A DNA stretch of 64,000 bases from Aureimonas mangrovi (GTDB lineage: Bacteria > Pseudomonadota > Alphaproteobacteria > Rhizobiales > Rhizobiaceae). The translations under genes and the position numbers were made by a program. The DNA lies in assembly GCF_014058705.1 (NCBI RefSeq), contig NZ_CP059692.1, positions 62,001 through 126,000 of the forward strand. The letters are read 5' to 3'. Positions 2,323 to 37,592 of this stretch are shown piece by piece. The notes under the pieces were generated by a model, which saw only the letters and a program-made list of their open reading frames with translations, did not search any database and was not told the DNA's origin. Positions within the stretch are counted from its first letter, which is position 1. Every line of letters starts with the position of its first letter.

Positions 2323-3933
<1,611 letters not shown>

Positions 3934-31963: not shown

Positions 31964-32674
31964 TCAGGCGGCCCGTCGCGAGCCGCTCATCTCTTCCAGA
32001 ATCGCGAGCGCCGCCGCCTTCGGTTCGCTCGCGGCGACGATCGGGCGCGCGACCACCAGATGCGAGGCGCCTGCGGCAAGTGCGTCGCCGGGGGTCATCA
32101 CGCGTTTCTGGTCGCCCGCCTCGCCACCGGCCGGGCGGATGCCGGGCGTGACGATGGCCGGGTCCGGCCCGACGATCGCGCGGATCGCGCGCGCCTCGGC
32201 GGCGGAGGCGACGAGGCCGGTGCCGATCTCGCGCGCCTGTTCGGCGCGGCGGCGCACCAGCGCCTCGACGCTCATCTCGTAGCCCGCTTCCGCCAGCCCC
32301 GCCTCGTCGAGCGAGGTGAGGACGGTGACGGCGAGCACCGTCAGGTCGCTGCCCCTGGCCGCGCGCATCGCGGCGCGCATCGCATGCGGATAGGCGTGGA
32401 CCGTCAGCATCGAGGCGCCGAGGCGCATGACGCTCTCGACCCCCTTCTCTACCGTGTTGTCGATGTCGAGGAGCTTCAGGTCGAGGAAGACACGCTTGCC
32501 GCTCGCCGCAAGGTCGGACACGAGTTCGAGCCCGCCCTTCGAATAGGCGAGCTGGTAGCCGATCTTGTAGAAGGTGACGGCATCGCCGAGCCGCTCCACC
32601 ATTGCTTCGGCGGCCTCGCGGCCGGGCACGTCGAGCCCGACGATCAGGCGCTCGCGCATGTCGTCATCCGCCAT
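31964..32674 (-). CDS. pyrF: Orotidine 5'-phosphate decarboxylase
   Basis: A 236-residue OMP decarboxylase for the last step of UMP synthesis. The catalytic Lys-Asp array is [10 protein letters not shown] (K67, D70); [13 protein letters not shown] at the start, VTPGIRP and [11 protein letters not shown] (phosphate loop) match the family. Its ATG shares one base with the polA stop (TGATG), so the two are translationally coupled. DUF1330 follows. Confidence 0.95.
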
Positions 32675-35598
32675 CAGTGAGCCTCTTCCCAGTTCTTCGC
32701 CGCCCGCGCTTCCACTTCGAGCGGCACTTTCAGATCGACCACCGGGTCGGCGGCCGTCTCCATCACGGTGCGAATGACCGGGATGGCGGCCTCCACCTCT
32801 TCCTCGGGAACCTCGAAGACGAGTTCGTCGTGCACCTGCAGAAGCATGCGGGCGTTGAGCCCCTCGGAGCGCAGCGCGTCCTCCATGCGGATCATCGCGC
32901 GGCGGATGACGTCCGCCGCCGTGCCCTGGATCGGCGCGTTGATCGCCGCGCGCTCCACTGCCGCGCGAACGCTCGGATTGGAATGGCGGATGTCCGGGTA
33001 ATGCGCGCGGCGCCCGAACAGCGTCTCGACATAGCCGGTCTCGCGGCAGGTGGCCTTGGTGCGGTCCATGTAGTCTCGGATGCCGGGGAAGCGCTCGAAG
33101 TAGCGCTTGATGTAGGCGCCGGCCTCCTCGCGCGGGATGGAGAGCTGGGCCGCGAGGCCGAAGGCCGAGATGCCGTAGACGATGCCGAAATTGATCGCCT
33201 TGGCGCGGCGGCGCACGTCCGACGGCATGCCCTCGATCGGCACGCCGAACATCTCGGAGGCGGTCGTCGCGTGGATGTCCTGGCCTGCGCGAAACGCCTC
33301 CACGAGCTGCGGAATCTCAGCCATGTGGGCCAGGATGCGCAGCTCGATCTGGCTGTAGTCGGCCGAGACGAGCTGGAAGCCCGACGGCGCGACGAAGGCG
33401 GAGCGGATGGCGCGGCCTTCCTCGGTGCGGATCGGAATGTTCTGCAGGTTCGGCTCGGTTGAGGAGAGCCGCCCCGTCGTCGTCGAGGCCATCGAGAACG
33501 AGGTGTGGATGCGGTCCTGCCCGTCCATGTGGAGCGGCAGCGCGTCGGTATAGGTGCCCTTCAGCTTGGTGAGCTGGCGCCAGTCGACAATGCGGCGCGG
33601 CAGATCGTGGCCGTCCACGGCCAGTTCCTCCAGCGTGCGCGCGTCGGTCGACCACTGGCCGGTCTTGGTCTTCTTGCCGCCCGGCAGGCCGAGCTTGCCG
33701 AACAGGATTTCGCCGAGCTGCTTGGGGCTGCCGGGGTTGAAGGGCTCGCCCGCCATGGCGTGAATGTCGAATTCGAGACTCGCCGCCTTCTGCGCGAAGC
33801 GGCCCGACAGGCGCGACAGGATCTGCCGGTCGGCCTTGATGCCGGCGAATTCCATACGCGCGAGCACCGGCACCAGCGGGCGCTCCAGCCGTTCGTAGAC
33901 ATGGGCGAGGCCTTCGGCGGCGAGGCGCGGCTTCATCGCCAGCCACAGGCGCAGCGTCACGTCCGCGTCCTCGGCGGCGTATTCCGTCACCTTCTCCACG
34001 GTGCAGGCGGCGATGGCCTTGGCGCCCTTGCCCGAGCCGCACAGCTCCTTGAACGAGATCGGCTTGTGGCCGAGCAGGCGCTCGGACAGCTCGTCCATGC
34101 CGTGCCCCTCCAGCGAGGACGAGGCGTCCAACGCGTAGGAGATCAGCATCGTGTCGTCGAAGGGCTCCACCGCCACGTCGTGGCGCAGGAGCACGAGATA
34201 GTCGTACTTGAAGTTCTGGCCGACCTTGAGAAGCGAGAAATCCTCCAGCGCGGGCTTGAGAATGGCAAGCGCGTCTGCGAGCGCGATCTGCTCGCCCGGG
34301 CCCTCCCCTTCGCCGCCGCCCAGAAGATCGCCCGCGCCCTCGGCCACATGGCCGATCGGCACGTAAGCCGCCTCGTTCGGCGCCACGCACAGCGCGATGC
34401 CGACGATTTCGGCATTCATCGCGTCGAGCGCCGTGGTCTCTATATCGACGGACAGGACGCCGGTCTCGTAGGCGCGCGCGATCCAGCGAGACAGCGTCTG
34501 GCCGTCGCGGATCGTGGCATAGGCCGCGCGGTCGAAGACCGAGGCCGCCATCTCGCCGGCGCGCTTGGTCGCGAGCGCGCGGGGCGTGAAGGGAAGCGCG
34601 GCGCCCGGCTCGGCAACCGCCGGCGCAGGGGAAGCGGCGGGGTCGAGATCGGGCCCGCGCGCCGGCACGGTGACGTCGATCGCGGCCGCCTCGACATCGG
34701 CCGCCTCGGTGCCGAGCGCCGCAGAGACGCGCCGCGTCAGCGTCGTGAACTCCATGGCCTTCAGATAGGAGACCAGCTTCTGCCCGTCCGGCTCGTGCAG
34801 CACGAGTTCGTCCAGCTCGACGTCCAGCGGGGTGTTCTGATCGAGCGTCACCAGTCTGTGCGAGAGCCGCGCCTGTTCGGCGAACTGCACGATGTTCTCG
34901 CGGCGCTTGGCCTGCTTTATTTCGCCGGCGCGCGCGAGCAGCGTCTCGAGATCTCCGAAGGTCGCCAGAAGCTCGGCCGCCGTCTTCGGGCCGATGCCGG
35001 GAATGCCCGGCACGTTGTCGGAACTGTCGCCGACGAGCGCCTGAAGGTCGATCATCTTCTCTGGGTAGACGCCGAACTTGTCGAACACCTCCTGCGGCCC
35101 GAGGCGCTTGTCCTTCATCTGATCGTAGAGCGTCACGCAAGGGCCGACGAGCTGCATCAGGTCCTTGTCGGAGGAGACGATCGTCACGTCGCCGCCCGCC
35201 TCCAGCGCCAGGCGCGTGTAGGTGGCGATCAGGTCGTCCGCCTCGAAACCCTGCTTTTCGATGCAGGGCAGGTCGAACGCGCGCACCGCTTCGCGGATCA
35301 GCGAGAACTGGGGCACGAGGTCTTCCGGCGGGGCCTGCCGGTTGGCCTTGTACTGGTCGTAGAGCGCATTGCGGAAGGTCGTCGAGGAATGATCGAAGAT
35401 CACCGCGAAATGCGTCGGCACGACGCCGACCGAAGTGTCGCGCGCTTCCTGGATCAGCTTCCAGAGCATGTTGCAGAAGCCGGAAACGGCGCCGACCGGC
35501 AGTCCGTCCGACTTGCGTGTCAGCGGCGGCAGCGCGTGGTAGGCCCGGAAGATGTAGGCCGAGCCGTCGACGAGGAAGAGGTGATCGCCCTTTTGCAT
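32674..35598 (-). CDS. polA: DNA polymerase I
   Basis: A 974-residue Pol I with three domains: the 5' nuclease (1-about 290; [45 protein letters not shown]), the 3'-5' exonuclease (about 375-560) with Exo [10 protein letters not shown], Exo [12 protein letters not shown] and Exo [13 protein letters not shown] all retained, so proofreading should be active, and the polymerase (about 600-974; [39 protein letters not shown]). Upstream is the 593-bp hairpin-rich interval. pyrF follows with a one-base overlap. Confidence 0.98.
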
Positions 35599-35867
35599 GG
35601 GCTAGGTCGTATCCGCAGCCGCACGCTTAGTCCATCCGCAACGCGTGCCGCTGGCTGCGGCACGGCTGCCCCGGCGCCGCCACAGTTGAACCTTGCGGGA
35701 AGACGAAAAAATCAAGCTGAAGCATTAAAATCTGCACGCGTCATCTTGACGCGATGACGCTGATTTCACAGGGCTTTCGGGAAGATAACAAAGAGTTAAG
35801 GTGCGTTCTCACGCAAGCGTGAGCCGAAGGGCTTGAACCCATTCGGCGTCGAGCGCATTTATGGTTC

Positions 35868-36025
35868 AACGACGCGACGATATTGCGTCGTGTTCGGCGC
35901 AAAGCTCGTCCCCCGCTTTCGACGCCGAATTGAGAAGCGGACAGTCCCATCCCCCCTCTCGGGACCTCCGCTTTACCAGAAAGGGCCGTCGCGACAATCC
36001 CCCTCCAGTCCGCGGCGGCCTTTTT
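35868..36025 (+). ncRNA. Candidate trans-acting small RNA with C-rich anti-Shine-Dalgarno loops
   Basis: Successive hairpins: ACGACGC/GCGTCGT (35869-35891), CCGCTT/AAGCGG (35913-35940), GTCCC/GGGAC with loop ATCCCCCCTCTC (35944-35965), and a terminator stem 35984-35993/36011-36020 (10 bp, one G-U) with loop ACAATCCCCCTCCAGTC followed by TTTTTCTGTTTTT. Exposed CCCCYUC loops complementary to ribosome-binding sites are typical of alphaproteobacterial families such as ar14 and the CuckooS RNAs. A possible promoter is TTGAAC (35833-35838), 17 nt, CATTTA (35856-35861). The 5' end is a guess; the terminator is the firmest part. Confidence 0.45.
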
Positions 36026-36033
36026 CTGTTTTT
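35984..36033 (+). terminator. Terminator with C-rich loop in the polA-peptidase interval
   Basis: GGCCGTCGCG (35984-35993) pairs with CGCGGCGGCC (36011-36020), followed by TTTTTCTGTTTTT. No protein-coding gene on the plus strand ends upstream of it (polA is on minus), so it implies a non-coding transcript. Confidence 0.75.
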
Positions 36034-36191: not shown

Positions 36192-37592
36192 ATGCCCGGC
36201 CTCGACAGCGTCCTTTCCTGCCTCGATCTCAATCTCGATCGCTCCGTCGAGCGCCTGCAGGAGCTCCTGCGGATCCCGTCGATCTCGACCGATCCGGCCT
36301 ATGCCCCGGACGTGCGTCGCGCGGCCGAGTGGCTGAAGGGCGATCTGGAGGCGATCGGCTTCTCGGCGCGCGTCGCCGAGACGGTCGGGCACCCGATGGT
36401 GGTCGCCCATCATGGCGGGGCCGGCGAGGGCAAGCCGCAGGTCCTCTTCTACGGCCATTACGACGTGCAGCCCGTCGATCCGATCGAGCTGTGGGACGCC
36501 GATCCCTTCGATCCAAAGGTCATCGCCATGCCGGACGGCACGAAGCGCATCACCGGGCGCGGCTCGGCTGATGACAAGGGCCAGCTCATGACTTTCGTGG
36601 AGGCCTGCCGCGCCTTTATCGCCGAGACGGGCAGCCTGCCCTGCCGCGTCACCATCTTCCTCGAGGGCGAGGAGGAATCCGGCTCGCCCTCGCTCCTGCC
36701 GTTCCTGAAGGAGAACGCCGAGGAGTTGAAGGCCGACGTCGCGCTCGTCTGCGACACCAACATGTGGGACCGCGAGACGCCGGCGATCTCGACGGGCCTG
36801 CGTGGCCTCGTCGGCGAGGAGATCACGCTGACCGCCGCATCGATGGACCTGCATTCGGGCTATTTCGGCGGGGCGGCGGCCAATCCGATCACGATCCTCG
36901 CCCGCATCCTCGGCGCGATGCACGACGCGGACGGCCGCGTGACGATCCCCGGCTTCTACGACGGCGTGCCGGAGCTGCCCGCCGACGTGCGGAAAGTCTG
37001 GGACGGGCTCGGTTTCGACGATGCCGCCTTCCTCGGCGCCGTCGATCTCTCGGTTCCCTTCGGCGAAAAGGGCCGCTCGGTTCTCGAACAGACCTGGGCG
37101 CGCCCGACCGCCGAGGTAAACGGCATCGAGGGCGGCTACACCGGCCAGGGCTTCAAGACGGTGATCGCCTCCAAGGCGCACGCCAAGGTCTCGTTCCGTC
37201 TCGTTTTCGACCAGGATCCGGACGCGATCCGCGAAAACTTCCGCCAGTTCGTGCGCGAGCGCCTGCCGGCGGACGTCTCCGTGGAGTTCCACGCACATGG
37301 CGGCTCGGCGGCGATCCAGCTTCCTTTCGATTCGCCGGTCCTGGAGACGGCCCGGCAGGCTCTATCCGACGAGTGGCCAAAACCCGCCGTGATGATCGGC
37401 ATGGGCGGCTCGATCCCGGTCGTCGGTCAGTTCAAGGACACGCTCGGCATGCCTTCGCTTCTCATCGGCTTCGGCCACGGCGACGACCGCATCCACTCGC
37501 CCAACGAGAAGTACGAGATGACCTCCTTCGCCAAGGGCCAGCGTTCCTGGGCGCGGGTGCTGGAGGCACTCGGCGAGAAGGGTGCGGCGTAG
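36192..37592 (+). CDS. M20-family dipeptidase / carboxypeptidase
   Basis: A 466-residue zinc peptidase of the ArgE/DapE/ACY1/CPG2 group. Metal ligands lie in FYGHYDVQPVD, GRGSADDKGQL and the Glu pair of LEGEEESGSPSL; the C-terminal metal His is in GFGHGDDRIHSPNEKYE. A dimerisation domain occupies about 200-350. No signal peptide, so it acts in the cytoplasm, probably on small peptides; the exact substrate is unknown. The ATG at 36192 is where family sequence begins; the 48 upstream in-frame codons are not conserved in style. Confidence 0.9.
   Translation: MPGLDSVLSCLDLNLDRSVERLQELLRIPSISTDPAYAPDVRRAAEWLKGDLEAIGFSARVAETVGHPMVVAHHGGAGEGKPQVLFYGHYDVQPVDPIELWDADPFDPKVIAMPDGTKRITGRGSADDKGQLMTFVEACRAFIAETGSLPCRVTIFLEGEEESGSPSLLPFLKENAEELKADVALVCDTNMWDRETPAISTGLRGLVGEEITLTAASMDLHSGYFGGAAANPITILARILGAMHDADGRVTIPGFYDGVPELPADVRKVWDGLGFDDAAFLGAVDLSVPFGEKGRSVLEQTWARPTAEVNGIEGGYTGQGFKTVIASKAHAKVSFRLVFDQDPDAIRENFRQFVRERLPADVSVEFHAHGGSAAIQLPFDSPVLETARQALSDEWPKPAVMIGMGGSIPVVGQFKDTLGMPSLLIGFGHGDDRIHSPNEKYEMTSFAKGQRSWARVLEALGEKGAA

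Follow-up and report, generated by a model that had tools for sequence, protein, structure and literature searches.

Which RNA, if any, is specified by positions 35868-36033 of the 64,000 nt of DNA analysed here (the window)? The initial annotation proposed a small RNA (sRNA) whose terminator has no coding gene before it, placed it with the ar14/CuckooS sRNAs and suggested that it may be new. The hairpins and the terminator are present at 35868-36033, no coding gene ends ahead of them, and the features on which our analysis rests are the following:

32674..35598, minus strand: polA (DNA polymerase I), from its open reading frame; divergent neighbour with start codon at 35598, a synteny diagnostic of ar7
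35785..35800, no strand assigned: box ATAACAAAGAGTTAAG, with genus consensus ATTACAAAGGTTTAAT; conserved in 21 congeners
35809..35822, no strand assigned: dyad TCACGCAAGCGTGA, preceding the promoter; its TCACG...GTGA does not vary among 21 congeners
35833..35861, plus strand: predicted promoter, with -35 TTGAAC (35833-35838), a 17-nt spacer and -10-like CATTTA (35856-35861)
35867..36033, plus strand: predicted ar7-family sRNA gene, about 165 nt long, from the Rfam ar7 match, orthologs and fold
35869..35891, plus strand: SL1, the 5' hairpin, from the fold; 6 of its 9 pairs changed on both sides, loop not C-rich
35892..35930, plus strand: SL2, with loop TCGTCCCCC at 35906-35914; core GTCCCCCGCT invariant
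35934..35974, plus strand: SL3, with loop ATCCCCCCTCTC at 35949-35960, anti-Shine-Dalgarno-like
35977..36033, plus strand: SL4, the terminator hairpin, followed by a U-rich tail; loop AATCCCCCTCCAG at 35996-36008
36192..37592, plus strand: downstream M20-type peptidase gene, from its open reading frame and tblastn synteny
G000:C1:2453223-2453233, minus strand, outside the window: porin-like leader site GCGGGGGACGA (loci L175, L209 and L272)

A four-hairpin RNA beside polA

The sRNA lies between the divergent polA and the M20 peptidase gene, which is read in the same direction as the sRNA. The name of the latter gene reflects sequence resemblance, and the nearest named relative of its product is from Aureimonas phyllosphaerae (84% identity), which makes Aureimonas the probable genus of the window. 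Entries in the list of open reading frames that overlap the sRNA locus are mechanical overlaps only: among 30 relatives the length of the element differs by non-multiples of three, and comparison of these relatives revealed no conserved reading frame across it. We inferred the 5' end from the promoter and an invariant CAACG, and placed the 3' end at 36033, the final T of the U-rich terminator tail.

The 166-nt RNA from 35868 to 36033 folds with -76.9 kcal/mol, compared with a mean of -48.9 for shuffled sequences (z -6.8), and none of 200 dinucleotide shuffles was as stable. The loops of SL1 to SL4 are, in order, CGAUA, UCGUCCCCC, AUCCCCCCUCUC and AAUCCCCCUCCA. Both C-rich loops quoted in the initial annotation, those of SL3 and SL4, are where it had placed them and are nearly fully unpaired in the fold ensemble, with mean unpaired probabilities of 1.00 and 0.93, respectively. 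Its loop inventory was nevertheless incomplete, missing a third C-rich loop, that of SL2, which is the most conserved of the sRNA and whose core does not vary across 30 aligned relatives. The SL4 terminator was absent from the list of a mechanical terminator scan; it is supported by the Rfam model, by the fold and by a last stem that is conserved and covaries.

Covariation was examined in a MAFFT alignment of 30 homologs that was not fitted to structure. In this alignment, 29 of 55 pairs had changed on both sides; shuffling gave 17.2, and none of 500 shuffles reached as high a count. The fold of the window sequence keeps 82.9% of the alignment cells paired and six slid controls were all clearly lower, although this comparison is biased in favour of the fold because the fold derives from one of the aligned sequences. 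When homologs were folded singly, four hairpins were recovered in 58 of the 66 usable sequences, and 53 had three or more loops that contain CCC. The near-invariant loops thus persist while the stems change with compensation, matching the published description of the SmelC023 family: four hairpins, two conserved loop domains and a Rho-independent terminator, with loops kept and stems variable (PMC3927594). In the window sRNA, likewise, the middle two of the four hairpins combine conserved loops with variable, covarying stems, and the 3' end is a Rho-independent terminator formed by SL4 and the U-rich tail.

Assignment to the ar7 family

An Rfam search had been suggested as a check. The scan of the whole window at default gathering cut-offs returned zero matches, and a scan with an E-value threshold was needed to see the ar7 model (RF02342), which matched 35875-36024 with 57.7 bits (E 1.6e-10) over its full length (model positions 1-145 of 145); in a search of the whole genome the match at the locus had an E of 2.2e-10. 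The score falls 2.3 bits short of the RF02342 gathering cut-off of 60 bits, which is a curation threshold and not a biological trait. The sole other ar7-like match in the genome below E 0.01, C1:187104-187251 with 29.7 bits, was considered as a second ar7 and dismissed as chance: it lacks the loops, its fold has a z of -1.6 against shuffles, and no polA is nearby. EcpR1, weighed as another conserved Rhizobiales sRNA, was also rejected as an identity, since EcpR1 (SmelC291) lies beside divK-pleD and has different loops.

Judged from its sequence, the window sRNA is an ortholog of ar7 (RF02342; SmrC7, sra03 or SmelC023 of Sinorhizobium meliloti). We take Rfam ar7 to be SmelC023/SmrC7 from its position at polA, the number in its name and its hairpin anatomy. 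The names SmelC023, sra03 and SmrC7 are themselves equated in the literature. With this family, which also includes A. tumefaciens C2 and R. etli ReC06, the window sRNA shares the full-length model match, the polA neighbour, an own promoter, four hairpins, a single chromosomal copy, conserved C-rich loops in SL2 and SL3, and a C-rich loop in the terminator hairpin. It differs in its score below the 60-bit cut-off, in a longer terminator loop (AAUCCCCCUCCAG) on a long perfect stem, in having the M20 peptidase gene directly downstream where a MarR-type gene is reported for Rhizobiaceae, and in an 11-nt complement of SL2 that was observed, in this genus, in the leader of a porin mRNA. Overall, we consider it highly probable that the locus specifies the ar7 trans-acting sRNA of an Aureimonas-like bacterium, with the mode of action proposed below.

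Distribution and synteny

Of 121 genomes of the family, 100 had a match to the ar7 model and 79 had one above the cut-off; at E <= 0.001, 14 control genomes had none. Conservation in sister genomes, another check put forward initially, bore out the proposal: all 21 congeneric genomes contain an ortholog, in one copy each besides the weak chance match in the genome of the window. Only one of these orthologs, in G129, exceeds the cut-off (66.8 bits); the other 20 score 46-59.6 bits, so that annotation pipelines will omit ar7 in this genus, where the Rfam cut-off narrowly misses it. Among relatives reached through the downstream gene, ar7 scored 137.4 bits in Sinorhizobium glycinis, 115.8 in Agrobacterium arsenijevicii, 115.4 in Mesorhizobium sp. 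AR07, 108.8 in Brucella daejeonensis and 58.8 in Aureimonas phyllosphaerae. Searches for plasmid homologs of the sRNA found none at blastn sensitivity.

By tblastn with the PolA and peptidase of the window, polA adjoins ar7 in 45 of 50 loci, and two more carry the peptidase gene. This neighbourhood is that of the described family, in which the RFM SmelC023 members are all adjacent to the DNA polymerase I gene, one A. tumefaciens member excepted (PMC3927594), and SmrC7 of S. meliloti sits between polA and SMc02851 (PMC2780559). Genome G084 contains two ar7-like genes (L050 and L051), neither with polA in the fetched 5-kb stretch; one of the pair is devoid of the terminator-loop hairpin and the other has a degenerate SL3. 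In Agrobacterium arsenijevicii (L083), ar7 is followed by the peptidase gene and, beyond it, by consecutive matches to the ar35, cspA thermoregulator and ar14 models (2955-3878, minus strand).

These data bear on two other identities. Membership of ar14/NfeR1, a CuckooS-like multi-target sRNA, would account for several hairpins with C-rich anti-Shine-Dalgarno loops, and the ar14 model (RF02344) does match weakly at the locus (23.4 bits, E 0.028). This score is, however, far under the ar14 cut-off of 58.8 bits and under the 57.7 bits of ar7 at the same place, the locus adjoins polA, and the genome contains two genuine ar14 genes elsewhere, in tandem at G000:C1:2238889-2239131 on the plus strand (L387 and L388; 85.6 and 90.0 bits). 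Moreover, an ar14 RNA consists of three hairpins that all display the CCUCCUCCC motif in their loops (PMC3927594), whereas the window sRNA has four, of which SL1 lacks a C-rich loop and SL2 has GUCCCCCGC. Scores and synteny refute the ar14 membership initially put forward, and we regard that identity as virtually untenable. What the window sRNA has in common with the CCUCCUCCC CuckooS-like group (ar14/NfeR1/SmelA075, RF02344) is C-rich loops pairable with Shine-Dalgarno sequences and, putatively, a similar action; its model, hairpin number, loop sequences and locus are others. AbcR1/AbcR2 (ar15) are likewise alphaproteobacterial trans-sRNAs with CU-rich anti-Shine-Dalgarno motifs, but they bind Hfq, have three stem-loops, lie at a different locus and have no model match here.

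A new sRNA family merely resembling ar7 would fit the sub-threshold score and stems strongly unlike those of S. meliloti ar7. We hold this to be very improbable in view of the polA adjacency, the same order of loops, a congeneric ortholog above the cut-off, scores that form a graded series within the family from 136 to 40 bits, and a genome that offers no better ar7 locus (the next match being that of 29.7 bits). The additional proximal hairpin and the neighbours that had prompted the suggestion of novelty are the standard anatomy and polA neighbourhood of ar7, leaving that suggestion unsupported.

Promoter and upstream region

The -10-like element of the predicted ar7 promoter falls within GCGCATTTA (35853-35861). 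Neither TTGAAC nor GCGCATTT varies among 21 congeneric sequences, and CAACG at the expected transcript start is likewise constant. Further upstream, the dyad at 35809-35822 and the box at 35785-35800 may be regulator sites or elements serving polA. In S. meliloti, SmelC023 depends on RpoD and RpoH1/2 according to a review, a dependence that the CTTGAA -35 element fits. By analogy, RpoH could act on the promoter of the window sRNA, which, from its CTTGAA-type -35, is probably under stress control. We also noted that 12 nt of the promoter spacer (35841-35852) form a perfect inverted repeat with the 3' arm of SL2 (35919-35930); it is probably due to chance, the spacer arm being missing in congeners.

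A porin leader as candidate target of SL2

In the same genome, the SL2 loop has an exact complement, GCGGGGGACGA, in the leader of a gene that is porin-like by sequence resemblance; the complement lies within a hairpin, 90-100 nt ahead of the start codon. The duplex between a 13-nt SL2 segment and this leader has a predicted energy of -26.6 kcal/mol, and 986 random 150-nt stretches of the window all gave weaker ones (minimum -24.5). We then collected all exact copies of the 11-mer outside ar7 in eight congeneric genomes (60 sites) and grouped them by their flanks, in a test designed after the porin match had already been noticed. The porin leader was the only context common to all eight genomes (nine loci), a conservation within the genus that is by descent and extends to the rest of the leader. 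The next contexts span two genomes, and 46 sites were singletons, mostly inside long open frames. As a control, the SL4 complement CTGGAGGGGG gave 60 sites in six genomes, with no context in more than two of them.

In four further congeners the porin site has six Gs and not five. Sister genera retain the leader hairpin with a weaker or absent match to SL2, and the complement was absent from the porin leaders examined in more distant relatives. Compensatory change between SL2 and the porin leader was looked for across sister genera and not convincingly found; in G127 and G135 the SL2 loop reads UUGUCCCCC and some porin leaders carry GGGGGACAC, the orthology of these leaders being uncertain. Folding of the leader pairs part of the G run with CCCG, so that it is mainly GGACGA that stays exposed. 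Given the long distance between the site and the ribosome-binding site, the contact could lead to repression, to stabilisation or to the sRNA being titrated. On balance, it is possible, though we put it forward tentatively as the less probable outcome, that ar7 regulates a major porin in Aureimonas-like bacteria through loop-loop contact of SL2 (UCGUCCCCCGC) with the leader hairpin GCGGGGGACGA.

Ribosome-binding sites of pntA, homoserine dehydrogenase and enoyl-CoA hydratase genes (names from sequence resemblance only) were discarded as targets: they are single-genome matches of the kind that any G-rich Shine-Dalgarno sequence gives.

Proposed mode of action

The description of the locus as a multi-hairpin, probably trans-acting sRNA with C-rich loops suited to G-rich ribosome-binding sites appears to be right. 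The sRNA gene would yield its own, independent transcript of about 165 nt. Its exposed SL3 and SL4 loops (CCCCCUCUC and CCCCCUCCAG) would cover G-rich Shine-Dalgarno sequences and so repress several mRNAs, and the SL2 loop (UCGUCCCCC) would bind longer, specific partners. NfeR1 and AbcR are reviewed as pairing their loops with ribosome-binding sites and blocking translation, and by analogy the SL3 and SL4 loops are suited to such pairing, as predicted here. In S. meliloti, SmrC7 was mapped by RACE and northern blot as a primary RNA of 148-150 nt and a processed RNA of 106 nt, and is about 13-fold up in nodules (PMC2780559). It gave no signal in Hfq co-immunoprecipitation (PMC2848018); an Hfq-assisted mode is thus unsupported in S. 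meliloti, and we claim no Hfq dependence here.

The C-rich loops might instead titrate a protein or ribosomes, in which case the RNA would be a decoy and would not regulate specific mRNAs by antisense pairing. Repeated loops are a feature of decoy sRNAs such as CsrB, and those of the window sRNA are repeated and almost invariant; a specific target is not established, and the lack of recovery of SmrC7 with Hfq would also suit a decoy. Yet the repeated CCCC loops match complements of Shine-Dalgarno sequences and not a known protein motif, and NfeR1 and AbcR, which are related sRNAs of the anti-Shine-Dalgarno type, target mRNAs, which makes a decoy improbable in our view.

Our search of the literature found no verified target of the ar7 family. 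As the sRNA family is already known, the one fresh element here is a computational hint of pairing between an ar7 loop and a porin mRNA in this genus. If the pairing is real, ar7, which was described in 2007 and has no established function in the literature examined, would gain its first named, conserved target and would be an outer-membrane regulator. The porin lead provides a concrete and inexpensive test for a widely conserved sRNA family that includes members in Brucella and Agrobacterium.
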